Positions 46,039-60,013 of a stretch of DNA of 64,000 nucleotides are shown here, one piece after another. The stretch is from assembly GCA_025928515.1 (NCBI GenBank), contig JAICJI010000002.1, forward strand, positions 1 through 64,000. Reading direction: 5' to 3'. The first letter of the stretch is position 1, and each line of letters opens with the position of its first letter. This DNA is from Thermoleophilia bacterium. GTDB taxonomy: Bacteria; Actinomycetota; Thermoleophilia; Gaiellales; Gaiellaceae. The position numbers were made by a program, and so were the translations under genes. The notes beneath the pieces are model-generated. The model was not told the DNA's origin. It saw nothing but the letters and a program-made list of their open reading frames with translations, and searched no databases.

Positions 46039-47008
46039 GTCGAGTCTTCCGTCTTCCCCGACACCACCGAGCTCGACGCCGGCGCGCGATCCGGTCGCGC
46101 CGCCGTCGGGGCCGGTCGAGGGGACGCTCGAGGCGGGACTCCAGCTCAAGGTTCGCAGCCAGTGGTCGTACGCACGCATGCGCTTCTTCCGGCACCGCCT
46201 CGCGCTGCTTGGGCTCTTCGGTTTGGTGGTGATCTTCGGCGCCGGCATCTTCGCGAACTACATTGCGCCGGGCGGGTTCTCCGCGATCAACCTCGCCGAC
46301 AGTCAGCTCCTCGCGCATCCGTCCTCGGCGCATCTCTTCGGCACGGACGAGATCGGCCGCAATGAGTTCAACCGCGTCATCTGGGGGATCAGGACCTCGA
46401 TGGAGGTCGGCGTCTTCGTCGCTGCCGTCTCGTCGCTGATCGGGTTGTTCGTCGGGGCGGTCGCCGGCTACTACGGGGGCTGGATCGACAACCTCCTCAT
46501 GCGACTCACCGACCTCGTGCTCACGCTTCCCGCGCTCGCCATCCTGCTCACGGCTTCCGCGCTACTCGGTCAGGGGAGCCAGTGGCGCATCTCGGGCATC
46601 CTCGTCGCCTTCTTCTGGACGGGCATCGCCCGTGTCGTCCGAGGTGTCTACCTCTCGTTACGCGAGAAGGAGTACGTGGAAGCCGCGAAGGCATCCGGCG
46701 CCGGCGACATGCGCCTGATGTTCAGGCACATCCTCCCGAACACGCTCGGCCCGATCATCGTCAACGGGACGCTCGCCGTCGGCACGGCGATCCTGGTCGA
46801 GGCGGCACTCTCCTTCCTCAACCTCGGGATCAAGCCGCCGACGCCGTCCCTCGGCGGGCTCATCAACGCCGCTCAGGCGTACCCGCAGCAGTGGTGGCTG
46901 ACCATCTTCCCCGGCGTCACGATCGTCCTCATCGTGCTCTGCGTCAATTTCGTCGGAGACGGCCTCCGGGACGCACTCGATCCGACCCAGAGGAGGGTGC
47001 GTGCCTGA
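46031..47008 (+). CDS. dppC: Dipeptide/oligopeptide ABC permease DppC-like
   Basis: A 325-aa partner permease. A Pro/Ser-rich cytoplasmic lead of about 40 residues precedes RMRFFRHRLALLGLFGLV. The typical periplasmic FGTDEIGRNEFNRVIWGI and the EAA loop EYVEAAKASGAGDMRLMFRH are present, then ILPNTLGPIIVNGTLAVGTA. C-terminal NFVGDGLRDALDPTQRR is the family ending. Overlaps dppB and dppD by 8 bp each. Confidence 0.92.
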   Translation: MTESSLPSSPTPPSSTPARDPVAPPSGPVEGTLEAGLQLKVRSQWSYARMRFFRHRLALLGLFGLVVIFGAGIFANYIAPGGFSAINLADSQLLAHPSSAHLFGTDEIGRNEFNRVIWGIRTSMEVGVFVAAVSSLIGLFVGAVAGYYGGWIDNLLMRLTDLVLTLPALAILLTASALLGQGSQWRISGILVAFFWTGIARVVRGVYLSLREKEYVEAAKASGAGDMRLMFRHILPNTLGPIIVNGTLAVGTAILVEAALSFLNLGIKPPTPSLGGLINAAQAYPQQWWLTIFPGVTIVLIVLCVNFVGDGLRDALDPTQRRVRA

Positions 47009-48020
47009 TCCGGTGCTCTCGATCCGAGATCTCGTCGTCGAGTTCAAGACCGAGGACGGCATCGTCCACGCCGTGGACGGCGTCTCCTACGATCTCTTCC
47101 CCGGCGAGACCCTCGGGATCGTCGGCGAGTCCGGGTCAGGCAAGAGCGTCTCGACGCTCGCTCTGCTCGGGCTGATCCCACAGCCGCCCGGGCGGATCGT
47201 CAGCGGCACCGCGGATTTCAAGGGCCGCGACTTGCTGAAGCTCAAGAAGAAGGAGCTGCGCCGCGTTCGCGGGAACGAGGTCGCGATGGTCTTCCAGGAT
47301 CCGATGACGTCGCTCAACCCGGTCCTGACGGTCGGCAACCAGCTCGGCGAGTCGATCAGGACGCACTTTCCGGACGAGAAGAAAGAGGTCGTGAAAGAGC
47401 GCGTCATCGACCTGTTGAAGCTCGTGGGAGTCCCCAACGCGGAGACGCGCTACGCCCAGTACCCGCACGAGTTCTCGGGCGGTATGCGGCAGCGCGCGAT
47501 GATCGCGATGTCGATCACGAACTCGCCGGCGCTACTGATCGCCGACGAGCCCACCACTGCGCTCGACGTGACGATTCAGGCGCAGGTGCTCGAGGTGCTC
47601 AGGCGCGTGCAGGCCGAGACCCATGCGGCGACGATCCTGATCACGCACGACCTCGGCATCGTCGCCGAGATGTGCGACCGCGTCCTCGTCATGTACGCCG
47701 GTCACATCGTCGAATCGGGTGACGTTGAGACGATCTTCCGAGCGCCGCGGCACCCGTACACGATCGGCCTCATGGACAGCCTGCCGAAGGTGACGGAGGA
47801 CGAGGAGTGGCTGCGTCCGATCACCGGGTCGCCCCCCTCGCTCATCGACCTCCCGCCGGGTTGCCCGTTTCACCCGCGCTGCTTCCTCGCCCGTGAGCGC
47901 TGCCGGCAGGAGAATCCGCCGCTCGCGCCGGTCGAGGGCTCCGCGCACCAGAGCGCGTGTCACTTCTCGGACGAGCTGATCGGCCACAAGTCCAAGTTCT
48001 CGCAGGAGGCCGTGGCGTGA
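47001..48020 (+). CDS. dppD: Dipeptide/oligopeptide ABC ATPase DppD-like
   Basis: A 339-aa ATPase. Walker A GESGSGKSVSTLAL, Q-loop AMVFQDPMTSLNPVLTVG, signature EFSGGMRQRAMIAMS, Walker B LLIADEPTTALDV, H-loop LITHDLGIVAEMC. The C-terminal oligopeptide-family extension with Cys residues (PPGCPFHPRCFLARERCRQE, later SACHF) can hold an Fe-S cluster in some homologues. GTG start inside the dppC end. Confidence 0.94.
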   Translation: MPDPVLSIRDLVVEFKTEDGIVHAVDGVSYDLFPGETLGIVGESGSGKSVSTLALLGLIPQPPGRIVSGTADFKGRDLLKLKKKELRRVRGNEVAMVFQDPMTSLNPVLTVGNQLGESIRTHFPDEKKEVVKERVIDLLKLVGVPNAETRYAQYPHEFSGGMRQRAMIAMSITNSPALLIADEPTTALDVTIQAQVLEVLRRVQAETHAATILITHDLGIVAEMCDRVLVMYAGHIVESGDVETIFRAPRHPYTIGLMDSLPKVTEDEEWLRPITGSPPSLIDLPPGCPFHPRCFLARERCRQENPPLAPVEGSAHQSACHFSDELIGHKSKFSQEAVA

Positions 48021-49090
48021 GCGCCGAGGCTGCGGCGATCCATCAGCGGGCGGACCAGGGCGAGGAGATCCTCCGCGTCGAGTCGCTCGTCAAATACTTC
48101 CCCATCCACGCCGGGATCTTCAAGAGCACGGTCGGGCACATCCACGCCGTCGACGGCGTCGACCTGACGGTGAAGGCAGGCGAGACCCTCGGGCTCGTCG
48201 GCGAGTCCGGCTGCGGCAAGACGACGCTCTCGCGGACCCTGATCAAGCTGACCGAGCCCACCAAAGGCAAGATCATCTTCAACGGTCGCGACATCACGGG
48301 GCTGTCGCGCCGCCAGATGCGCGAGGTCCGGAGTGAGATGCAGATCGTCTTCCAGGACCCGTACGCGTCGCTCAACCCACGCATGACCGTCCGTGACATC
48401 GTCAGCGAGCCGCTCCGGATTCACGGTCGGCACAGCGGCGCCCAGGGGAAGTCACGGGTGGACGAGCTGCTGCGCGTCGTCGGGCTGTCGCCCGAGCACG
48501 CGAACCGCTTCCCACACGAGTTCTCGGGCGGTCAGCGGCAGCGCATCGGTGTCGCGCGTGCGCTTGCGCTCAACCCGCAGCTGATCATCCTCGACGAGCC
48601 CGTCTCGGCGCTCGACGTCTCGATTCGCGCGCAGGTGGTCAACCTGCTCGAGTCGCTGCAGCGCGACTTCGGCCTGACCTACATCTTCGTCGCGCACGAC
48701 CTGTCCGTCGTGCGGCACGTCTCCGACCGCGTGGCCGTGATGTACCTCGGCAAGGTGGTCGAGATCGGCACGAAGCACGACATCTACGAGCGGCCCTCGC
48801 ATCCGTACACGCAGGCGCTGCTGTCGGCGGTTCCCATCGAGGAGCCGGGCCAGCGTGGGAAGCGCGAGCGGATCGTGCTCGAGGGCGACGTCCCGAGTCC
48901 GGCCAACCCGCCGTCGGGTTGCCGCTTCCGCACGCGCTGCTGGAAGGCGCAGGCGATCTGCGCGGAGCAGGAGCCGGAGCTCGTCGACCGCGGCACGGGC
49001 CACCCGACCGCGTGTCACTTCGCCGAGGTCGTGAAGCCGCTCGACCTCGTCGCAGCGACGCCGGCATCTTCCGCGCCAGCCGAGAGCTAG
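48017..49090 (+). CDS. dppF: Dipeptide/oligopeptide ABC ATPase DppF-like
   Basis: A 357-aa ATPase. Walker [16 protein letters not shown]-loop [16 protein letters not shown], signature [16 protein letters not shown], Walker [16 protein letters not shown]-loop [14 protein letters not shown]. The C-terminal Cys-bearing extension is [23 protein letters not shown] start overlaps dppD by 4 bp. Last gene of the five-gene importer; convergent with a small minus-strand gene one base after its stop. Confidence 0.94.
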
Positions 49091-50900: not shown

Positions 50901-51752
50901 ATGAGCGTCGCCGTCGAGCTGCACGAGCACGAGGAAGAGGAGGCACTCCCAGCCTGGAGCCTGCCGGCAGAGTCCGTCGACCGCATCCGCGTGCCGGTCA
51001 CCCTGCCCGACCAGGTGACGCGCGACTGGGCGTGGGGCGGCTCGACCGGCGCCGGCGTCCGGGTCTGCATTCTCGACAGCGGGATCGAGCTCGACCACCC
51101 GCTCGTCGGCCGGGTCGACCACTCCGTGGCCGTGATTCGCGACGACGACGGCGAGCTGCAGGTCGTCGAGGACGACGCCGGAGACCTCTGCGGTCACGGC
51201 ACCGCCTGCGCAGGTGTCGTGCGCGCGCTCGCGCCCGACGTCGAGCTGACGAGCATCCGCGTGCTCGGTGCCGGCTACACCGGCGGCGGCGAGATCATGC
51301 TGCGCGGGTTGGCATGGGCGATCGAGCAGGGGTTCCAGATCGTGAACATGAGCCTCTCGACGACGCGGACGAAGTACGTGGAGCGGCTGCACGAGCTCGC
51401 CGACCGCGCCTACTTCCGGCGTGTCCTGCTCGTCGCCTCGGCCCACAACATGCCGGTGGAGAGCTTCCCGTGGCGCTTCGCGAGCGTGATCTCGGTCGGC
51501 AGCCACGAGGAGCCCGACCCGCTGACCTTCTATTACAACCCCTCGCCGCCGGTCGAGTTCTTCGGCCGCGGCCTCGACCTCGACGTCGCCTGGCTGGGCG
51601 GCGGCACGCTCCGCTGCACGGGCAACAGCTTCGCGACGCCACACATCGCCGGGATCTGCGCGCTCATCATGGGCAAGCATCCCGAGCTGACGCCGTTCCA
51701 GCTCAAGAGCGTCCTCTACCAGACGGCCTCGAACGCGAAGGACGCCGCATGA
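50901..51752 (+). CDS. Cytoplasmic subtilisin-like serine protease (S8)
   Basis: A 283-aa S8 peptidase with no signal peptide or membrane span. The triad is complete: Asp in VCILDSGIELDHP, His in LCGHGTACAGVV, Ser in GNSFATPHIAGICA, with the oxyanion Asn in VASAHNMP. An acidic 40-residue N-terminal segment (ELHEHEEEEALP) could be a short propeptide. Intracellular subtilases process specific partners or peptide precursors; a general digestive role is unlikely inside the cell. It overlaps the GAF gene by 4 bp and follows a kinase, suggesting a regulated proteolytic module. Confidence 0.9.
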   Translation: MSVAVELHEHEEEEALPAWSLPAESVDRIRVPVTLPDQVTRDWAWGGSTGAGVRVCILDSGIELDHPLVGRVDHSVAVIRDDDGELQVVEDDAGDLCGHGTACAGVVRALAPDVELTSIRVLGAGYTGGGEIMLRGLAWAIEQGFQIVNMSLSTTRTKYVERLHELADRAYFRRVLLVASAHNMPVESFPWRFASVISVGSHEEPDPLTFYYNPSPPVEFFGRGLDLDVAWLGGGTLRCTGNSFATPHIAGICALIMGKHPELTPFQLKSVLYQTASNAKDAA

Positions 51753-52381
51753 GCGATCTCGAAGCCGCTGTCGCCGCGGGCGTCCTCGGGGCCGACGAGG
51801 CCCACCGCGCGCTGCTGCAGGCGACGGTGGAGGTGGCGCGCGCGATCTTCGGCGCCAAGGCTGCGTCCGTGTTCCTCCTCGACGAGGAGGCGGAGGAGCT
51901 CGTCTTCGAGGCGGTCGCCGGAGAGGGGGAGGGCGAGCTGATCGGGATGCGGTTCCCGGCCGGCAACGGGATCGCCGGCTGGGTGCTCACGACCCGGCAG
52001 CCCCTCGTGGTCGACGATCTCAGCGCCGACACGCGCTGGTCGCGCACCCAGGCCGAGTCGACCGGCTACGTGCCGAAGAGCATGATGTCCGTGCCGCTCC
52101 TCGTCGAGGAACGTGCCCTGGGCGTACTCCAGGTGCTCGACCGGCCGCCGGATACGCGGGTGCGGCTCGCCGAGGTCGACCTACTCGGGCTGTTCGCGAA
52201 CCAGGCTGCGATCGCGCTCGATCTGCTGCAGCGGGCGCGCCGGGCGCGCGAGGCGCTCGCGGGCGAAGGTCGGCTGGCCCCGCTCGCACGTGTCGCCGCG
52301 CGGCTCGAAGAGGGCGAGCGGGACGCTGCCTTCGAGCTCCTACGCGCGTTCGAGCGCGTGCTCGTCGAAACCAGGGACTAA
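51749..52381 (+). CDS. GAF-domain protein
   Basis: A 210-aa protein with a single GAF domain (about residues 20-165): ASVFLLDEEAEELVFEAVAG, GNGIAGWVLTTRQPLVVDDL and SMMSVPLLVEERALGVLQVL are the standard strands. An Arg/Ala/Glu-rich helical tail follows. No output domain is attached, so it probably senses a small ligand or redox state and acts on a partner, plausibly the co-translated subtilase or kinase. Convergent stop overlap with the MFS-cNMP gene. Confidence 0.85.
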   Translation: MSDLEAAVAAGVLGADEAHRALLQATVEVARAIFGAKAASVFLLDEEAEELVFEAVAGEGEGELIGMRFPAGNGIAGWVLTTRQPLVVDDLSADTRWSRTQAESTGYVPKSMMSVPLLVEERALGVLQVLDRPPDTRVRLAEVDLLGLFANQAAIALDLLQRARRAREALAGEGRLAPLARVAARLEEGERDAAFELLRAFERVLVETRD

Positions 52382-54021
52382 CCGAGCGCGCCGGCGGCGA
52401 GGCGCGAGGTCACGACGCCCTCCACCGCCTCGAACGTCGCCGTGTGGCCCGTCACGGCGGCGATGAACTCGTCGCGCTCCACCGTGTAGAGCCGGAGCGG
52501 CTCGACCGCACGGACGGTTGCGGTCCGTGGCACGTCTCGCAGGAGGGCGATCTCGCCGAAGTGGTCGCCGGGACCGAGCTCGCGCGACTCTGCGTCGTCG
52601 ATCTCCACCGCAGCCCGTCCCTCGGCGATGACGTAGAACAGGTGGCTGCCCATCTCGCCTTGGGTCACCACGGGCTGGAACGGAGCCACTGTGACGGCTT
52701 CCGCGCCGGCAGCGAGCCGCTCGAGCGCCGGTTCCGGCAGCAGTGCGAAGAAGCCGATCTGCCGCAGCAGCTCGAGCGGCTCCGCGGCGATCGCCGCTTC
52801 GTCGTCGATTCTCCGCAGGCTCGACCAGACCCAGACGAGCAGCACTGGCAGGAGCGCTCCTGTCGCGATCAGGGCTCCGCGGCTGCCGAGCCAGCTGACG
52901 AGGCCGGGAGCCGCGATCGACCCGACGGCCATCCCTCCCATGATCAAGCTCTCCAGGACGGCGAAGACGCGGCCCATCACCTCGTTCTCGGCCGAGCGCT
53001 GCAGCAACGTCACGCTGTTGACCTGGACGAAGATCGTGCCGACGCCGAGCGCGCCGGCGAGGACGAGGTCCGGGCCGAGCGAGGACACGCCGGCCATGGC
53101 CACGAGCGGCAGGGCAGAGAGCAAGAGCCCGATCGCGAAGCCTCCCGCCAGCCTGCGGCGGGTGGCGAGGACGGCGACGACGAGCGCGCCGCCGATGCTG
53201 CCGACGCCGATCGCGGTGTTCAGCCAGCCGAGGCTCGCGTTGTTGCCGCCGTGCAGCAGCCGGAGCGCGATCACGACGAGGAGCACCTCCATCGCGCCGT
53301 CCACGATCGACTGCGCAGTGCTCAGCCCGATCACGACCCGGAGCGCCGGCCGGCGAAGCACCGTCGAGAACCCGGTCGTCAGCTCGGCGAGGAAATGCGA
53401 CCGCTCTCCCGGATCGGGCGGCTCGTCGCGCGGCACCCGGAGGACGAACGCCGCCGACCAGAGCGTGAGGCCGCCGGTCAGTGCGAAGACCGCCGAGGGT
53501 CCGCTGAGCGCGAGCAGGACGCCGCCGAGGGCCGGGCCGGCGAACATCCCCACGCTCGAGATCGTGTTGCCAACGACGTTCGCGGCGGCGAGCTCCTCGG
53601 GCGTATTCACCAGCGAAGGCATCAAAGCTGCCTGCGCAGGCGCATACGAGACGGAGATCACGGTCGACGCCACGGCGAGGACGTAGACGGCGTACGCATT
53701 GCCGCCGGTGCTCGCGACCGCGGTCATGCCGGCGAAGATCGCGCAGCGCGAGAGATCCGAGGTGAGCATCACGCGGCGGCGAGACCAGCGGTCGGCGATG
53801 ACGCCGATCCACGGCCCGGAGAGCGCCCCGAGCCCCAGGCGCACGAAGAACAGGAGGCCGACCGCGCGCGTGCCTCCCGAGTGGTACGCGTAGACCGGGA
53901 GCGCGACCCCGTACGCCCAGGTTCCCAGCGTCGAGCCCGCCCCTGCGAGCTGGACGTTGCGGACGCGAGGGTTCGAGAAGACCCTCCTGAAAGCCTGGAG
54001 CGAAGCGGCGAAGCGGCTCAC
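52378..54021 (-). CDS. MFS transporter fused to a cyclic-nucleotide-binding domain
   Basis: A 547-aa fusion. Residues 1 to about 405 form an MFS (MFS_3, efflux-like) transporter with the loop motif IGVIADRWSRRRVMLTSDL between helices 2 and 3. Residues 410-545 form a cNMP-binding domain with the phosphate-binding cassette FGEIALLRDVPRTATVRAVE, including the Glu and Arg that contact the nucleotide. The GTG at 54021 is the best available start but has no Shine-Dalgarno. The domain may gate transport by cAMP or cGMP. It is divergent from the repeat-peptide cassettes at 54146, which makes it a candidate exporter for them (inference). Confidence 0.85.
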   Translation of the reverse strand: MSRFAASLQAFRRVFSNPRVRNVQLAGAGSTLGTWAYGVALPVYAYHSGGTRAVGLLFFVRLGLGALSGPWIGVIADRWSRRRVMLTSDLSRCAIFAGMTAVASTGGNAYAVYVLAVASTVISVSYAPAQAALMPSLVNTPEELAAANVVGNTISSVGMFAGPALGGVLLALSGPSAVFALTGGLTLWSAAFVLRVPRDEPPDPGERSHFLAELTTGFSTVLRRPALRVVIGLSTAQSIVDGAMEVLLVVIALRLLHGGNNASLGWLNTAIGVGSIGGALVVAVLATRRRLAGGFAIGLLLSALPLVAMAGVSSLGPDLVLAGALGVGTIFVQVNSVTLLQRSAENEVMGRVFAVLESLIMGGMAVGSIAAPGLVSWLGSRGALIATGALLPVLLVWVWSSLRRIDDEAAIAAEPLELLRQIGFFALLPEPALERLAAGAEAVTVAPFQPVVTQGEMGSHLFYVIAEGRAAVEIDDAESRELGPGDHFGEIALLRDVPRTATVRAVEPLRLYTVERDEFIAAVTGHTATFEAVEGVVTSRLAAGALG

Positions 54022-54105
54022 GCGAAGGAGGATCGCAGGCGCAGTTGCGAATTTGAAGGGTCGGTGGGAAGATTTGTCTGCCCAGGCACGTCTAGAGGGT
54101 TGACA

Positions 54106-54122
54106 GCGCCCGAACGAGGCGC
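54106..54122 (+). promoter_or_regulatory. Conserved inverted repeat of peptide cassette 1
   Basis: GCGCC-N7-GGCGC, preceded by TTGACA at 54100-54105 and ending 23 nt before ATG 54146. The same arms, spacing and distance recur before the second cassette. Operator or 5' UTR hairpin. Confidence 0.6.
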
Positions 54123-54145
54123 AGAGGCTTCTAAAAGGAGGAGCA

Positions 54146-54280
54146 ATGTCGGACGAGCAGCGCAACGAAGAGGAGATCGAGGTCGAGGGCCATATCCACC
54201 GCGCCGGTGCGAACGACGAGCCGCGTGAGGATGCAGAGACCGATGACGAGGTCGAGGGCCACATCCATCGGGCCGGCTGA
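54146..54280 (+). CDS. Tiny acidic repeat peptide 1 (44 aa)
   Basis: A 44-aa peptide with a strong ribosome site (AAAAGGAGG) before its ATG. It opens MSDEQRNEEEIEVEGHIHRA and contains two copies of the unit VEGHIHRAG, the second one exactly at the C-terminus, separated by an acidic spacer (NDEPREDAETDDE). There is no signal peptide, Cys or membrane segment. The H-x-H pairs could bind metal, or the units could be cores cut from a precursor. I do not recognise a named family. The next cassette encodes a clear paralogue, which argues strongly that both are real genes. Followed by its own terminator. Confidence 0.75.
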   Translation: MSDEQRNEEEIEVEGHIHRAGANDEPREDAETDDEVEGHIHRAG

Positions 54281-54302
54281 TCTCCAGCCAGCAGTAGCTT
54301 CC

Positions 54303-54334
54303 AAGGGCCCGGCACACGCCGGGCCCTTTTCTTT
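54303..54334 (+). terminator. Intrinsic terminator after repeat peptide 1
   Basis: AAGGGCCCGGC pairs with GCCGGGCCCTT around ACAC, followed by TTTTCTTT. CTTCCAA and TTGGAAG form weak outer arms. A well-formed terminator 22 nt after the stop. Confidence 0.9.
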
Positions 54335-54373
54335 GGAAGATCCCGAGGTCGACGCGCGTCTTGATAGGTGAGA

Positions 54374-54390
54374 GCGCCTCCACCGGGCGC
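54374..54390 (+). promoter_or_regulatory. Conserved inverted repeat of peptide cassette 2
   Basis: GCGCC-N7-GGCGC again, ending 23 nt before ATG 54414, with TTGATA at 54361-54366 upstream. The spacer bases differ from those of the first copy while arms and distances match, as expected for a constrained site. Confidence 0.6.
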
Positions 54391-54413
54391 AGGGCGAGAG
54401 CAAGGAGCGAGAA

Positions 54414-54617
54414 ATGTCAGACGAGCAGCGCAGGGACGAAGAGACCGAGATCGAGGCCCATACGCACCGTGCCGGCGCGACGGACGAGCCTATGGACGAG
54501 GGCGAGATCGAGGCGCATACGCACCGTGCCGGCGCCAACGACGAGGCCGACGACGAGATCGAAGCGCACGTGCACAGAGTTGCCAACGTGCGGATGGATT
54601 CGCCCAGCAACACCTAG
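54414..54617 (+). CDS. Tiny acidic repeat peptide 2 (67 aa)
   Basis: A paralogue of the 54146 peptide: the same MSDEQR start, then three repeat units (EIEAHTHRAGA, EIEAHTHRAGA, EIEAHVHRVAN) separated by acidic spacers such as TDEPMDEG and NDEADD, and a short non-repeat end VRMDSPSNT. The Shine-Dalgarno is AAGGAG. Very acidic, His-bearing, without Cys, membrane or signal segments. Either a multi-core peptide precursor, a metal- or proton-buffering protein, or a partner for a binding protein; no function can be assigned. Confidence 0.75.
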   Translation: MSDEQRRDEETEIEAHTHRAGATDEPMDEGEIEAHTHRAGANDEADDEIEAHVHRVANVRMDSPSNT

Positions 54618-54647
54618 TACGACCTGACCTGACCCGTCACGTGGGAG

Positions 54648-54675
54648 GGCCCGGCCGACCGCCGGGCCTTCTTGC
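54648..54675. terminator. Terminator after repeat peptide 2
   Basis: GGCCCGGC pairs with GCCGGGCC around CGACC, followed by TTCTT on the plus strand. It lies in the convergent gap and may also serve the cyclodeaminase-like gene on the minus strand. Confidence 0.7.
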
Positions 54676-54688
54676 GTGCCAGCGTTTC

Positions 54689-55255
54689 CTACAGCGACTT
54701 CGCCGCTGCTTCCGCGGCGGCAACGAGGCGATCGACCTCCTCGACCCGCGCGTCGCCGGGCAGAGCAGTGAGGTTCACCGCGACGAGCTCCCGCGCGCCA
54801 CGGGTGACGGCGACCGCGAGCGCAGCCGCCGCCGCGACGTCGGCATGTACGCGCGGCTCGACGCGCGCTCCGGCCGCGGCGCAGAGCGCGGCCAAGTCGG
54901 CCGCGAGACGCGCGAGCGCGAGGGGAGGCTCAGCGGCTGCGGACGTGACGTTGCCCAGCGCCCAATCTCGTTGCTCGGGCCGTGCGGGCTTGTCCGCTAC
55001 GTCCCGCGCCTCGAGCGCTTTCCGGTACGCGTCGGCGTCTTCGTCGACGAGCTGCGCAGCGCGCTCGCGCAAGGCGTCGGCCTGGGCGGCCACTCCCGAA
55101 GCATCGGCCCAGCTGGCAGGCGAGAGGCGCGCGGCCATCTGCACGACCGCCGCGGCCAGCGCGAGCGCCGCCGCTAGTGCCGAGCCGGCGCCCGGAGCTT
55201 CACGCGGCGACGCCAGCTCCTCGAGAAGCGCGGGGAGGGAGAGGCCGGTGAGCAC
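54689..55255 (-). CDS. Cyclodeaminase/cyclohydrolase-family protein (FTCD C-terminal-like)
   Basis: A 188-aa all-helical protein. LPALLEELASPREAPGAGSA followed by an Ala-rich helix and QMAARLS is the family start (usual PGGGSxAA). The Ala-rich helices continue to EEVDRLVAAAEAAAKSL. Relatives act on 5-formimino- or 5,10-methenyl-tetrahydrofolate; others are uncharacterised. The Gly-rich loop PGAGSA is near canonical. Last gene of the minus-strand operon that starts at 58323. Confidence 0.82.
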   Translation of the reverse strand: MLTGLSLPALLEELASPREAPGAGSALAAALALAAAVVQMAARLSPASWADASGVAAQADALRERAAQLVDEDADAYRKALEARDVADKPARPEQRDWALGNVTSAAAEPPLALARLAADLAALCAAAGARVEPRVHADVAAAAALAVAVTRGARELVAVNLTALPGDARVEEVDRLVAAAEAAAKSL

Positions 55256-55292: not shown

Positions 55293-55559
55293 TCAGACCG
55301 CCTCGAGGAGTTGGCGCAACCGGGAGACGATGAACGGTGAGGGCTCGTAACCGGCGGCGGCGACTGCGCGTTCGAGGTCGGCTTGGAGCTGAAGCCGGAA
55401 CGCGGCATCCTGCTCGGCCCGCGCGACGAGCTCGTCGAGGGCCGCCCGCGCGGCCGGAAGCTCCTGAGCAGCGCGCACCCATCCCTCGGGTGCGGGCGGA
55501 AGGAGGCGTAGGAGCCGGCCGATCTGTTCCCCATCGAATTCGTTCATCTCAATACTCAT
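55293..55559 (-). CDS. Small hypothetical protein downstream of ECF sigma (88 aa)
   Basis: An 88-aa protein overlapping the sigma gene's stop by 4 bp, so translationally coupled to it. Mostly helical by composition: EQIGRLLRLLPPAPEGWVRA, then ARAALDELVARAEQD, ending IVSRLRQLLEAV. No Cys/His zinc finger or membrane span, so it is not a classical anti-sigma. The PPAPEGWVRAAQELP segment resembles a small-domain pattern I have seen after ECF sigma genes but cannot name. A modulator of the sigma factor is an inference from coupling. Confidence 0.65.
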   Translation of the reverse strand: MSIEMNEFDGEQIGRLLRLLPPAPEGWVRAAQELPAARAALDELVARAEQDAAFRLQLQADLERAVAAAGYEPSPFIVSRLRQLLEAV

Positions 55560-56107
55560 GACGGGCGAGAGGCCCGACTCCTTCCATCGAGTTCTGCACG
55601 AACTTTTTCGAGGCAGCGCGAGATCCGGCTCGCGATCGTCCCGGCTGGGATGTCGAGCATGTCGCCGATCGTGTGGTAGCTCTCGTCGCGGCAGAAAAAA
55701 CGGTCGAGGATCTCACGGCACGGGTCGCCGACCTTGTCGAGCGCAGCCCGCACGGTCATCGCGTCGTCGAGCGTCGCGAGCACGTCCTCGACCTCCTGCT
55801 CGTCGGGGTCCGTCTCGGAAGGTGCGTCACGAGCGAGGAGCCGCAACCGGTCGATGGACAGCCGCCGCGTGAGCTGCGCGAGCCACGGGCGCACGGCGTC
55901 GTCACTGCGGAGGTCGTGGAGCCGCTCGAACGCCCGGGCGAAAACCTCCTGGAAGACGTCCTCGGCGTCCTGTTGCGGCAGACGGAAGCCGCGGCCACAG
56001 ATCGCGTAGACGTAGCGCGAGAAGCGCTCGACGAACTCGTTCCAGGCCCCGGGATCGCCCGAACGGCAACGGGAGACGAGCTGAGCGTCGGTCTGCTCGA
56101 CGGCCAT
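55556..56107 (-). CDS. ECF-type RNA polymerase sigma factor
   Basis: A 183-aa sigma factor with regions 2 and 4 only. Region 2: AWNEFVERFSRYVYAICGRG and QQDAEDVFQEVFARAFERLH, then PWLAQLTRRLSIDRLRLL. Region 4: CREILDRFFCRDESYHTIGD and LDIPAGTIASRISRCLEKVR with the recognition helix. It sits between the kinase/aminotransferase fusion (17 bp upstream) and the 88-aa protein. Its anti-sigma is not obvious nearby. Confidence 0.9.
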   Translation of the reverse strand: MAVEQTDAQLVSRCRSGDPGAWNEFVERFSRYVYAICGRGFRLPQQDAEDVFQEVFARAFERLHDLRSDDAVRPWLAQLTRRLSIDRLRLLARDAPSETDPDEQEVEDVLATLDDAMTVRAALDKVGDPCREILDRFFCRDESYHTIGDMLDIPAGTIASRISRCLEKVRAELDGRSRASRPS

Positions 56108-56124: not shown

Positions 56125-58323
56125 CTACAGGAGCAAATCGAGCGCTCGGACGAGCAGTTCGACGTGCTCGTCCTCGAAGACGAGCGGGGGTCGGACCTTG
56201 AGCACGTCCCCGTCCTTGCCGGTGCGACCCACGAGGATTCCGTTCTCGCGGAGCTTCTCGGCGACGGTCCCGGCGAGCTCGCCGCTGGAGAGCTGGACGC
56301 CGGCGAGGATTCCGCGCCCGCGCACCTCGACGATGTCGCCCTTCCCGAGATCCACAATCGCGGCTCGCAGCCTCTTACCGACTTGCGCCGCCCTCTGCGG
56401 CAGCCGCTCGTCCTCGAGCACGTCGAGCACAGCGAGCGCGGCGCTCGCGGCGACCGGGTTGCCGCCGAAGGTGGAGAACGTCCGGCCGGCGTACGGGAAA
56501 CGCTCCGAGAGCTCCCGCCTCGTCACGACCGCGGCGACGGGATAGCCGTTGCCCATCGGCTTGCCGAGCGTCACGACATCCGGCGCGACCCCGTGCCGCG
56601 CAAACGACCAGAGCTCGGGCCCGAGCCGCCCGTGGCCGGCCTGAACCTCGTCAGCGACATACAGGCCTCCGGCGGCGTGCGTCCGTTCCACGAGCAGGCG
56701 CAGCTCGGCCGTCTCGGGCACATGGATCCCGTCGCTCATGAGCGACCCGTCGAGGAACGTCGCGGCCAGACCGCCGTCGAGCTCCTCGAGTGCGCCGGCG
56801 AGCGCGGACTCGAGGTCGCAGCCGCTGCCGGGTGGCGGGATCCGGGCGATGCTGCCGGGACTCGTCCGTTCCGGCCAATCCTCCGGCGAGAGCGCGGTGC
56901 TCGCGGCGGTGACTCCGTGGTAAGCGTGCTCCGTCACGATCGCGCCGTCTCGTCCGGTCGTTCCCGTGGCGAGCCGCCAGGCGAGGTCGTTCGCCTCGCT
57001 GCCGGAGTTGACGAGCAGCACGGTGTCGAGCGCCGCTTCCGGCGGGAAGGTCGCGAGCAGGCGTTCGGCCAGGTCGACGAGCGGCTGCGCGAGGTAGCGC
57101 GCGTTCGTCGCGGCAAGCCGGGTCTGGCGGACGATCGCCTCGGCGACTCGCGGGTGGCAGTGCCCGACGACGGGGACGTTGTTGTAGGCGTCGAGCAGCC
57201 GATGTCCGTCGGGCTCGTAGATCCAGACGCCCTCGGCGCGAACCGCGTGGACCGGGCGCCGGTAGGTGAGTGGCGTCAGGAGGCCGCCGAACGCGTCTTC
57301 ACGCCGCCGGGCGAGCTCCTGCGTCGCGGTCCTGGGCGGGCGCGCGCCGAGCTCGTTAGCGGTCTCCTCGGGAGCAAGCCCGTCGAGGAACTCGAGCAGG
57401 CGCCACGAGTCCTCGTCCCACGCCTCGATGTAGGCCGTGTTCTCGGGGAAGCGGCGGGACCGCCAAGCGCTGATCGAGACGATCGCGGCGAGCCGAGCGG
57501 CGACGAGGTCGCCCAGCAGCTCGAGCTCGAGCTCCTCGAGCGGGAGCCGGGAGGCGAAGCCGTCCAGCGCGATCCGGGCGACCCGGAACGAATCGTCGAC
57601 AGGCCGGCCGCGGAGGATCGACGCCAGTGCGATCGCGACGTCGGCCGCGAGCGCCGTGTGGCAGCAGTCCCCGAAGTCGAGGATCCCGGTCACGCGGCCA
57701 CGCTCGTCGACGAAAAGGTTGTCGAGGTTGAAGTCGCCGTGTGCAACCTGGGCACGTAGCCGCTCCCACCGAGGCCGGACACGCTCGTCGTAGCGGTCGA
57801 GCGTTCGCTCGACGAGCGCCCGCCTGCCGGGCTCTTCGATCTCCGCGAGCAGCGGGCGGAGCTCTGGGGTCGCGCGGATGTTCCACAGCAGCTCGCGGCC
57901 GGCCGCCGGATGGAAGAACGAGCGCAGGGCGAGGCAGACACGGGCATGCGTCTCGGCGAGACCACGCACGGCCGAATCCTCGAGCTCCGGCCCCGCCTTC
58001 AGTCCGTGGCGCCGCTCGAACAGCCGCACCTGATGACCGTCGAAGGCCGCCCTCGGCGCGAGAGGCCGCGCGACCGGCAAGTCCGCATCGACCGCCGCGA
58101 TGTGCGCGATCGCGGCCTCCTCCAGGTCGAGCGCCGCTCCGTCCTCGCCGGAGTTCGAGATCTTGAGCACGCCGCCCGTCTCGCCGTCGTCGAGGAGGAA
58201 CGCCTGGTCGCGCTCGCTGCCGAGCGCGGAGGCGGTCGCCTGCAGGCCGAACAACTCCGCGGCGATCCGCGCAGCGTCCTCGACCGAGAACCGCGGTGGC
58301 GCCGAATCGAGGACCGAGCTCAT
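56125..58323 (-). CDS. Aminoglycoside-phosphotransferase-fold kinase fused to class III aminotransferase
   Basis: A 732-aa bifunctional protein. Residues 1 to about 315 form a small-molecule kinase: nucleotide-site LKISNSGEDGAALDLEEAAI, catalytic HGDFNLDNLFVDE and metal-binding ILDFGDCCHTALAADVAIAL. Residues 340-732 form a PLP enzyme: SGSEANDLAWRLATGTTG, ADEVQAGHGR and the lysine in VTLGKPMGNGYPVAAVV. In animals hydroxylysine kinase and 5-phosphohydroxylysine or phosphoethanolamine phospho-lyase are separate members of the same two families; the fusion suggests phosphorylation of an amino alcohol, then PLP-dependent elimination of phosphate. Substrate unproven. First gene of its operon. Confidence 0.88.
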   Translation of the reverse strand: MSSVLDSAPPRFSVEDAARIAAELFGLQATASALGSERDQAFLLDDGETGGVLKISNSGEDGAALDLEEAAIAHIAAVDADLPVARPLAPRAAFDGHQVRLFERRHGLKAGPELEDSAVRGLAETHARVCLALRSFFHPAAGRELLWNIRATPELRPLLAEIEEPGRRALVERTLDRYDERVRPRWERLRAQVAHGDFNLDNLFVDERGRVTGILDFGDCCHTALAADVAIALASILRGRPVDDSFRVARIALDGFASRLPLEELELELLGDLVAARLAAIVSISAWRSRRFPENTAYIEAWDEDSWRLLEFLDGLAPEETANELGARPPRTATQELARRREDAFGGLLTPLTYRRPVHAVRAEGVWIYEPDGHRLLDAYNNVPVVGHCHPRVAEAIVRQTRLAATNARYLAQPLVDLAERLLATFPPEAALDTVLLVNSGSEANDLAWRLATGTTGRDGAIVTEHAYHGVTAASTALSPEDWPERTSPGSIARIPPPGSGCDLESALAGALEELDGGLAATFLDGSLMSDGIHVPETAELRLLVERTHAAGGLYVADEVQAGHGRLGPELWSFARHGVAPDVVTLGKPMGNGYPVAAVVTRRELSERFPYAGRTFSTFGGNPVAASAALAVLDVLEDERLPQRAAQVGKRLRAAIVDLGKGDIVEVRGRGILAGVQLSSGELAGTVAEKLRENGILVGRTGKDGDVLKVRPPLVFEDEHVELLVRALDLLL

Positions 58324-58489: not shown

Positions 58490-60013
58490 TTGGGGGCTGA
58501 CCTCATCTCGCGCGACGGTTTTCGTCTTCGTACCTGGCAGGTAGGTCTGCTGGCACTCGTGATCGCGCTCGTCCTCGGCGGGATGCGCTCGGGTGCCTCC
58601 TGGGGCTCCTCCGGCTACGACCCGGCCGCCGATCCCTATTCGATGCAGAACATCACGGCCGGCGACGGCGCGCAGGCATGGTGGAACGCCGGCTACAGCG
58701 GCAAGGGTGTCGGCGTCGCGCTCATCGACACGGGCGTCTCGCCTGTGGCGGGCCTGGACGGATCCGGCAAGGTCACGTACGGCCCAGACCTCTCGCTCGA
58801 CTCCCAGGCCCCGAGCCTGCAGAACCTCGATGAGAACGGTCATGGGACGTTCATGGCGGGTCTCATCGCCGGCAACGACGGCCAGCCGGGCGGCTACCGC
58901 GGCGTGGCGCCCGACGCCAACCTCGTCTCGCTCAAGGTCGGCGTCGCCGACGGCGGTGCCGACGTGAGCCAGGTCATCGCGGCGATCGATTGGGTCGTGC
59001 AACACCGGAACGACAACGGGATGAACATCCGCGTGCTCAATCTCTCCTTCGGCACGAACTCGACGCAGGCGTATCAGATCGACCCGCTCGCGTACGCGGT
59101 CGAGCAGGCGTGGAAGGCCGGAATCGTCGTCGTCGCAGCCACCGGGAACTCCGGTTACCAGACCGGCGCGAGCGCGCAGGGGCTCGCCGATCCCGCGTAC
59201 GACCCGCAGATCCTCGCCGTCGGCGCAGCCGACACCGGGGGGACGTTGACGGCGTGGGGCGACCGCGTCGCCCCCTTCTCGGCGAACGCCGCCAGCTGCA
59301 GCGTCGCCTGCCGCCCGCCCGACGTGACCGCCCCTGGGACGCACATGCAGGGGCTCCGTGTCCCCGGCTCGTACATCGACCAGAGCAACCCGACGGGCAT
59401 CCTGAGCGACCGCTACTTCCGCGGAAGCGGCACGTCGGAAGCGGCTGCCTTCGTCTCCGGCGCGGTCGCCGACCTCTATCAGCGCTACCCGCAGCTGACG
59501 CCGGACCAGGTGAAGGCGATGCTGACGTCCAGCTGCGACAGGCTCACTGCTGCGAACTGGAAGCGGCAAGGGTGCGGCGAGCTCAACATGAGCACGCTCC
59601 TGAACGCCCCGGTGCCCTCGGTCCTCGCGTCGCAGCAGACCAACGCCTCCTCGACCGGCACCGGGTCGCTCGAGGCCTCGCGCGGCACCGATCACATCTC
59701 GCAGAACGGCGTCGTGCTTCAGGGCGAAAGAGACATCTTCGGCCAGCCGTTCGACTCGAGCGCGATCGCCGCGCTCGAGGCCGCGGGCCACAGCTGGTCG
59801 GGCGGCATGTGGAACGGCTCGTCCTGGTCTGGGAGTTCCTGGAGTGGCTCGAGCTGGAGCGGCTCGAGCTGGAGCGGATCCTCGTGGTCGGGCAACTCGT
59901 GGAGCGGCTCGTCCTGGTCCGGCAGCTCGTGGAGCGGATCGAGCTGGAGCGGCTCGAGCTGGAGCGGCAGCAGTTGGTCGGGCGGGTCATGGCTCGGTGC
60001 CAGCTGGGGCTGA
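58490..60013 (+). CDS. Membrane-anchored subtilase with Ser-Gly-Ser-Ser-Trp repeat tail
   Basis: A 507-aa S8 peptidase. A TTG start is supported by AAGGAGGT five nt upstream. The N-terminal hydrophobic segment VGLLALVIALVLGGM (about residues 18-35) should export or anchor it. The triad is complete: Asp in VALIDTGVSPVAG, His in NGHGTFMAGLIAG, Ser in GSGTSEAAAFVSGAV. From residue 435 to the end run 14 five-residue units, mostly SWSGS, finishing SWG. The tail is rich in Trp, Ser and Gly, without charges, and may form a beta-solenoid, wall-binding or self-assembling segment. Confidence 0.9.
   Translation: MGADLISRDGFRLRTWQVGLLALVIALVLGGMRSGASWGSSGYDPAADPYSMQNITAGDGAQAWWNAGYSGKGVGVALIDTGVSPVAGLDGSGKVTYGPDLSLDSQAPSLQNLDENGHGTFMAGLIAGNDGQPGGYRGVAPDANLVSLKVGVADGGADVSQVIAAIDWVVQHRNDNGMNIRVLNLSFGTNSTQAYQIDPLAYAVEQAWKAGIVVVAATGNSGYQTGASAQGLADPAYDPQILAVGAADTGGTLTAWGDRVAPFSANAASCSVACRPPDVTAPGTHMQGLRVPGSYIDQSNPTGILSDRYFRGSGTSEAAAFVSGAVADLYQRYPQLTPDQVKAMLTSSCDRLTAANWKRQGCGELNMSTLLNAPVPSVLASQQTNASSTGTGSLEASRGTDHISQNGVVLQGERDIFGQPFDSSAIAALEAAGHSWSGGMWNGSSWSGSSWSGSSWSGSSWSGSSWSGNSWSGSSWSGSSWSGSSWSGSSWSGSSWSGGSWLGASWG
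59792..60010 (+). repeat. 15-bp tandem repeat coding Ser-Gly-Ser-Ser-Trp pentads
   Basis: Fourteen 15-bp units plus a remnant, coding SWSGG/MWNGS/SWSGS and similar. Several neighbouring units are near-identical (AGCTGGAGCGGCTCG), others use different Ser codons, so recent slippage and older divergence are both present. In frame throughout, inside the subtilase gene. Confidence 0.95.

Follow-up and report, generated by a model that had tools for sequence, protein, structure and literature searches.

Duplicated repeat-peptide cassettes with an ECF-type promoter beside an S8 protease-GAF gene pair in Gaiellaceae: candidate multi-copy peptide precursors

The window, a 64-kb stretch of DNA (64,000 nucleotides) from a soil bacterium, carries a duplicated cassette for tiny acidic peptides at 54100-54675, and this anatomy was confirmed in the sequence. 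The cassettes lie between an S8 protease-GAF-MFS gene group and a gene for an ECF sigma factor, with the following features.

50901-51752, plus strand: S8 subtilisin-like protease (profiles; catalytic triad invariant in 29 relatives)
51740-52381, plus strand: GAF-domain protein, constant partner of the S8 protease (profiles; loci survey)
52378-54018, minus strand: MFS transporter with a C-terminal cNMP-binding domain, divergent from the cassettes (Pfam)
54067-54095, plus strand: ECF-type promoter of cassette 1, GGAAGAT-N15-CGTCTAG (exact match; elements and spacing the same in relatives)
54106-54122, plus strand: dyad GCGCC-N7-GGCGC of cassette 1, probable 5'-UTR hairpin (sequence; fold p=0.05; lineage-limited)
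54146-54280, plus strand: repeat peptide 1, 44 aa, two VEGH units
54303-54328, plus strand: intrinsic terminator of cassette 1 (terminator scan)
54335-54363, plus strand: ECF-type promoter of cassette 2, GGAAGAT-N15-CGTCTTG (sequence match)
54374-54390, plus strand: dyad GCGCC-N7-GGCGC of cassette 2 (UTR folds no better than shuffles, p=0.41)
54414-54617, plus strand: repeat peptide 2, 67 aa, three IEAH units
54646-54670, plus strand: probable terminator of cassette 2 (GC hairpin, weak T tail)
54689-55255, minus strand: FTCD_C (cyclodeaminase-like) protein (in 22/49 loci)
55293-55559, minus strand: NHLP88, small NHLP-clan protein lacking a core region (matches to NF038399 and PF14407 under the cut-offs)
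55556-56107, minus strand: ECF sigma factor, candidate reader of the promoter (profile searches; co-occurrence)

Both open reading frames described in the earlier note were found at these coordinates and share the N-terminal start MSDEQR; peptide 1 reads MSDEQRNEEEIEVEGHIHRAGANDEPREDAETDDEVEGHIHRAG and peptide 2 reads MSDEQRRDEETEIEAHTHRAGATDEPMDEGEIEAHTHRAGANDEADDEIEAHVHRVANVRMDSPSNT. Over 103 nt the cassettes share 77% identity, and no other close copies were found in their own genome (assembly of 2.0 Mb, 79% complete). Of the terminators proposed for each cassette, the first was recovered by the scan, and the second is a similar hairpin with a weak T tail that the strict scan missed. The cassettes are not a chance arrangement, because same-genus relatives carry syntenic ones and the order-level relatives bring the total to 53.

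The promoter is not the TTGA[C/T]A that the earlier note listed in both cassettes. TTGACA was rejected as a -35 element: a sigma-70 scan found no promoter there, relatives do not conserve the hexamer, and the two copies (TTGACA at 54100-54105, TTGATA at ~54359) are not in equivalent positions, the latter overlapping the true -10 element of cassette 2. The promoter is the upstream GGAAGAT-N15-CGTCTAG (CGTCTTG in cassette 2); exact matches in the genome number two, one for each cassette. GGAAGA(T/A)-N15-CGTC was present in 53/53 order-level cassettes, a set whose collection required this spacing; a looser scan allowing spacings of 13-17 returned 15 only. Three more cassettes outside the 53, from genus g10, have GGTCTAG or GGTCTTG as the -10 element at the same spacing. 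A GGAA-type -35 and a CGTC-type -10 element at fixed spacing are what characterizes ECF-dependent promoters, for which sigma-E targets served as the comparison (PMC6767563). The T-extended form occurred in 34/54 genomes with the ECF ortholog and in 5/245 without it (p=2e-25), three of these five being incomplete genomes that hold cassettes. The ECF factor encoded at 55556-56107 probably reads the cassette promoters. In three same-genus genomes, a promoter-like GGAAGAT-N15-CGTC was also seen within the 3' end of the ECF gene, immediately before NHLP88 (L086:7414, L090:6891, L092:7206). The same promoter form precedes another gene close to ECF/NHLP88 (L145:9700, minus strand; G008), whose product is probably secreted and which the sigma factor may also transcribe.

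The dyad ends exactly 23 nt before the ATG in both cassettes, as the earlier note had it. Its proposed role as an operator did not hold up, nor did the TTGACA promoter to which it was coupled, since the promoter is of the upstream ECF type and the dyad lies downstream of it and is not conserved. The window's genus and one other genus have dyads with differing arms, and several other genera have none. Being positioned just past the expected start site, the dyad would be a 5'-UTR hairpin. As a conserved hairpin it was likewise rejected: only 9/55 UTRs folded better than shuffles at p 0.05, the UTR alignment was too gapped for a base-pair count, and an Rfam search returned sub-threshold matches only.

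A repeat-profile search of the Thermoleophilia, which the earlier note had suggested, matched 24/299 genomes of the class. A promoter-only search, blind to the peptide, recovered extra cassettes whose peptides are too diverged for the profile, and inspection of S8 loci added yet more; a single window peptide used as query against genome contigs found no relative. In total, 55 promoter-linked cassettes were collected from Gaiellaceae and other Thermoleophilia, 53 of them at the order level. Four same-genus genomes carry one to three cassettes in the same place, beside the divergent MFS gene, and these precede FTCD_C wherever the contig continues. Pfam and NCBIfam searches with both window peptides gave no significant family, in agreement with the earlier statement that the family had no name, and the leader domain of aroma-sacti precursors (NF045560) had no NCBIfam match in them. 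The peptide family is new, previously unnamed and widespread, with a stress-type promoter of its own. Its dN/dS (median 0.57, within genus, whole peptide) is not near 1, which bears out the selection claimed before; the whole peptide is under moderate purifying selection at the genus level.

The conserved part of the repeat is a five-residue island, [DE]-[VF]-E-[AG]-H, present mostly in two to five copies per peptide and followed by variable sequence. The longer unit first described, E-[IV]-E-[GA]-H-[ITV]-H-R-A-G, extends too far: HRAG and H-x-H are local to the window genome, and even there the third unit of peptide 2 reads HRVA. When 125 units were aligned on the His, D/E occupied P5 in 124, V/F/I P4 in 124, E P3 in 119 and A/G/L P2 in 124, with H at P1. 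The search pattern fixed H and the residues allowed at P4-P2 and left P5 unconstrained; therefore, the residue frequencies inside the island are informative, and not H itself. Acidic residues lie upstream of the island and lineage-variable sequence, often with short repeats of its own, lies downstream, the spacing from unit to unit being mostly 18-30 residues. Some terminal segments are two to four residues long (KV, KR, RMK). The earlier suggestion of a metal- or proton-binding His peptide is very improbable for the family. Each unit does place one His beside acidic residues, and some members contain HRHRHRH runs (L089), as such a role would have it, but an H-x-H buffer is unsupported because His recurs at +2 in just 23/125 units. 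There is also no Cys in the 3322 residues of the family peptides, the family keeps V at P4 and A/G at P2 though metal binding needs neither, and no metal gene was found among the conserved neighbours tested. Two repeat proteins with TEAH/TQAH units (L143:548, plus strand, and 16787, minus strand) form a distant family with a shared C-terminal SDVRLK-x-x-IRAV.

A survey of 49 loci links the peptide family to the MFS, S8 and GAF genes. The MFS transporter adjoins the peptide gene in 48/49 loci and is divergent in 47/49; the S8 gene was found in 45, GAF in 46, ECF and NHLP88 together in 34 and FTCD_C in 22, many of the absences being contig ends. The cNMP domain is present on the window MFS, and most ortholog alignments extend through it. 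S8 orthologs occurred in 23/24 profile-positive genomes and in 28/275 others (p=3e-19); co-occurrence over the full set gave p 7e-46, but that set was gathered partly via S8 loci, so the profile-only test is the fairer one. NHLP88 belongs by profile to the NHLP clan, which is RiPP-leader-like, at scores below the curated cut-offs (33.5 against 40 for NF038399; 28.5 against 48 for PF14407). A kinase upstream of S8 was left out of the module because its conservation is limited to the genus, save for a cyclase-kinase protein in L143. In L091 (9283) and L126 (9848), a second peptide-MFS pair with the same promoter has no S8 nearby.

These neighbours also bear on a feedback or anti-sigma role, in which the peptide would target the ECF sigma factor. 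An ECF-type promoter, an acidic peptide and the co-occurrence of the ECF ortholog with the peptide (p=3e-38) would suit it, but the conserved neighbours are MFS, S8 and GAF, with ECF in 34/49 loci (many of the others cut by contig ends), and the motif recurs beside S8-GAF pairs with no ECF ortholog detected within 6 kb. We regard such a role as improbable.

The S8 protein has the Asp-His-Ser triad and subtilisin fold of a subtilase; the triad is invariant in 29 relatives and the AlphaFold model is confident (pLDDT 87). No signal peptide was evident by eye, and the protease appears cytoplasmic. Its match to the QhpE profile (E=3e-27) reached 95.3 bits, under the cut-off of 165, and that to the PatA/PatG family 34.2 bits, far short of its cut-off of 421. 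A VxAH-like motif also lies close to the N-terminus in several of the S8 proteins (window AVELH, L139 AIEAH, L150 EVAAH, L143 EVEAH; also L149 and L085). It may mark a site of self-processing and is missing from many other S8 proteins. At L164, an S8-GAF-MFS locus that is more distantly related, the repeats read EDDTEGQ, Q replacing H, and the S8 protease is different in AHNxPVESxPWRF, a segment mostly retained by VxAH-linked proteases; both observations come from this single case.

Orthologous S8-GAF pairs were found in cultured Streptomyces, Kitasatospora, Nonomuraea and Rhodococcus rhodnii, among others. Of the 51 loci surveyed for this pair, which include a few thermoleophilian ones, all 51 had GAF with S8, 44 a cyclase-AAA-TPR protein and 19 an aroma-sacti radical SAM gene. 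Small ORFs with a ribosome-binding site contained [DE]VxAH in 26/46 non-Gaiellaceae loci, a count that includes a few ORFs resembling ordinary proteins and not precursors. The other 119 permutations of the motif reached at most 5 loci (median 1), and the reversed-DNA control gave 1/51 loci. The motif sits near the leader/core junction of radical-SAM (sactipeptide-like) and other RiPP-like precursors, for example ...AVEPEVQAH SVVAGAALF and ...ETPEVEAH VANILDLQ..., and in a multi-copy precursor, ...DVIAH SAGADDDSAPCGVQLGKQAA. A literature search for the motif, covering few subscription papers and no preprints, gave nothing relevant.

In layout, the putative tag [DE]VxAH matches the published S8 recognition motifs of ElxP, (D/E-5)-(L/V-4)-X2-(Q-1), and PatA, which cleaves after G(L/V)E(A/P)S (PMC10885120). 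The tag spacing and the acidic and Val positions are those of the ElxP tag, and ElxP is also cytoplasmic; however, H and not Q stands at -1, and no lanthipeptide genes were seen at the Gaiellaceae locus. Cyanobactin precursors hold several variable cores behind copies of the short S8 tag (PMC10885120, PMC4663559), a likeness to the multiple variable segments found here, whereas the Gaiellaceae tag terminates in H and no PatG/YcaO-type genes were recognised. QhpE is a cytoplasmic S8 protease, encoded next to its substrate gene, that removes a leader in quinohemoprotein amine dehydrogenase maturation (PMC7876137); the window S8 appears to be of this cytoplasmic type, but no qhp genes were seen. 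The aroma-sacti (StsA-related) radical SAM clusters have the orthologous S8-GAF pair, with 58-62% identity between the S8 proteins, and their precursor has EPEVQAH closing the leader domain ahead of the core. These clusters differ in their radical SAM, haem-oxygenase-like and cyclase genes, none of which was recognised in the Gaiellaceae locus, and in precursors that usually have a single core where the Gaiellaceae peptides are repeated. Os1348, which affects antibiotic activity (PMC7726476), and Frankia_peptide are NHLP-clan relatives of NHLP88, which is a neighbour of the repeat peptide and not the repeat peptide itself.

We somewhat favour the reading that the cassettes encode ECF-controlled multi-copy ribosomal peptide precursors, which the S8 protease would cleave after the H; the multi-core precursor was one of three roles offered in the earlier note and is the one the data support. 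From the gene order and motifs we infer that the ECF sigma factor, probably the 55556-56107 product, would transcribe each cassette from GGAAGAT-N15-CGTCTAG, yielding a chain of acidic spacers that each close with [DE]-[VF]-E-[AG]-H and are followed by a variable segment. The apparently cytoplasmic S8 protease, with its GAF partner, would recognise the motif and cut after H, and the variable segments thus freed would leave the cell through the divergent MFS transporter, for which the cNMP domain suggests cyclic-nucleotide gating. The released segments could finally serve as signal or antagonistic peptides. In combining a conserved tag with a variable core, the short peptide is as expected of a RiPP precursor; against this reading, searches of the Gaiellaceae locus genes recognised no modifying enzyme, the S8 protease scores under the curated cut-offs of QhpE and PatA, and the second peptide-MFS pairs of L091 and L126 have no adjoining S8. 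The shortest last segments are also short for a bioactive product. To our knowledge, peptides of 20 residues are not typical cargo for MFS transporters to export, which counts against the export step.

The main rival holds that the repeats are decoys or propeptide-like regulators, the motif docking in the S8 active site to hold or titrate a protease whose real target lies elsewhere. The VxAH-like motif near the N-terminus of several S8 proteins points that way, and very short last segments suit a binding tag better than a product. This role is nonetheless unlikely: in the Streptomyces-type loci the motif stands between leader and core of RiPP-like precursors, where a cut is expected, the N-terminal motif is missing from many S8 proteins, and a regulator would not need the divergent transporter. 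Returning to the precursor reading, we tentatively extend it, with less confidence: S8-GAF would serve actinobacteria in general as a maturation module with [DE]VxAH as its recognition tag, and the Gaiellaceae peptides would be a new multi-copy and perhaps unmodified class, switched on by a dedicated ECF factor and exported by a cNMP-gated MFS transporter. If so, one tag would unite peptide families that are now unconnected, provide a handle for more of them across Actinomycetota, predict where products start, and offer a setting for studying the GAF partner and the cNMP-domain MFS transporters. The tag, the protease and the promoter are all open to direct tests, in Gaiellaceae as well as in Streptomyces and Kitasatospora cultures.

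Three further genes or gene pairs lie near the window locus. A second S8 protease (58490-60013, plus strand), with SSW(S/N)G repeats at its C-terminus, stands beside the locus only within the genus, as does, at full length, a fusion of an APH-type phosphotransferase and a class III aminotransferase (56125-58323, minus strand). Two adjacent genes at 47001-49090 (plus strand) resemble, by eye, OppD and OppF of an oligopeptide ABC importer; related pairs lie ~10 kb or less from the locus in L017, L124, L125, L127 and L128, so a link to peptide uptake is possible.
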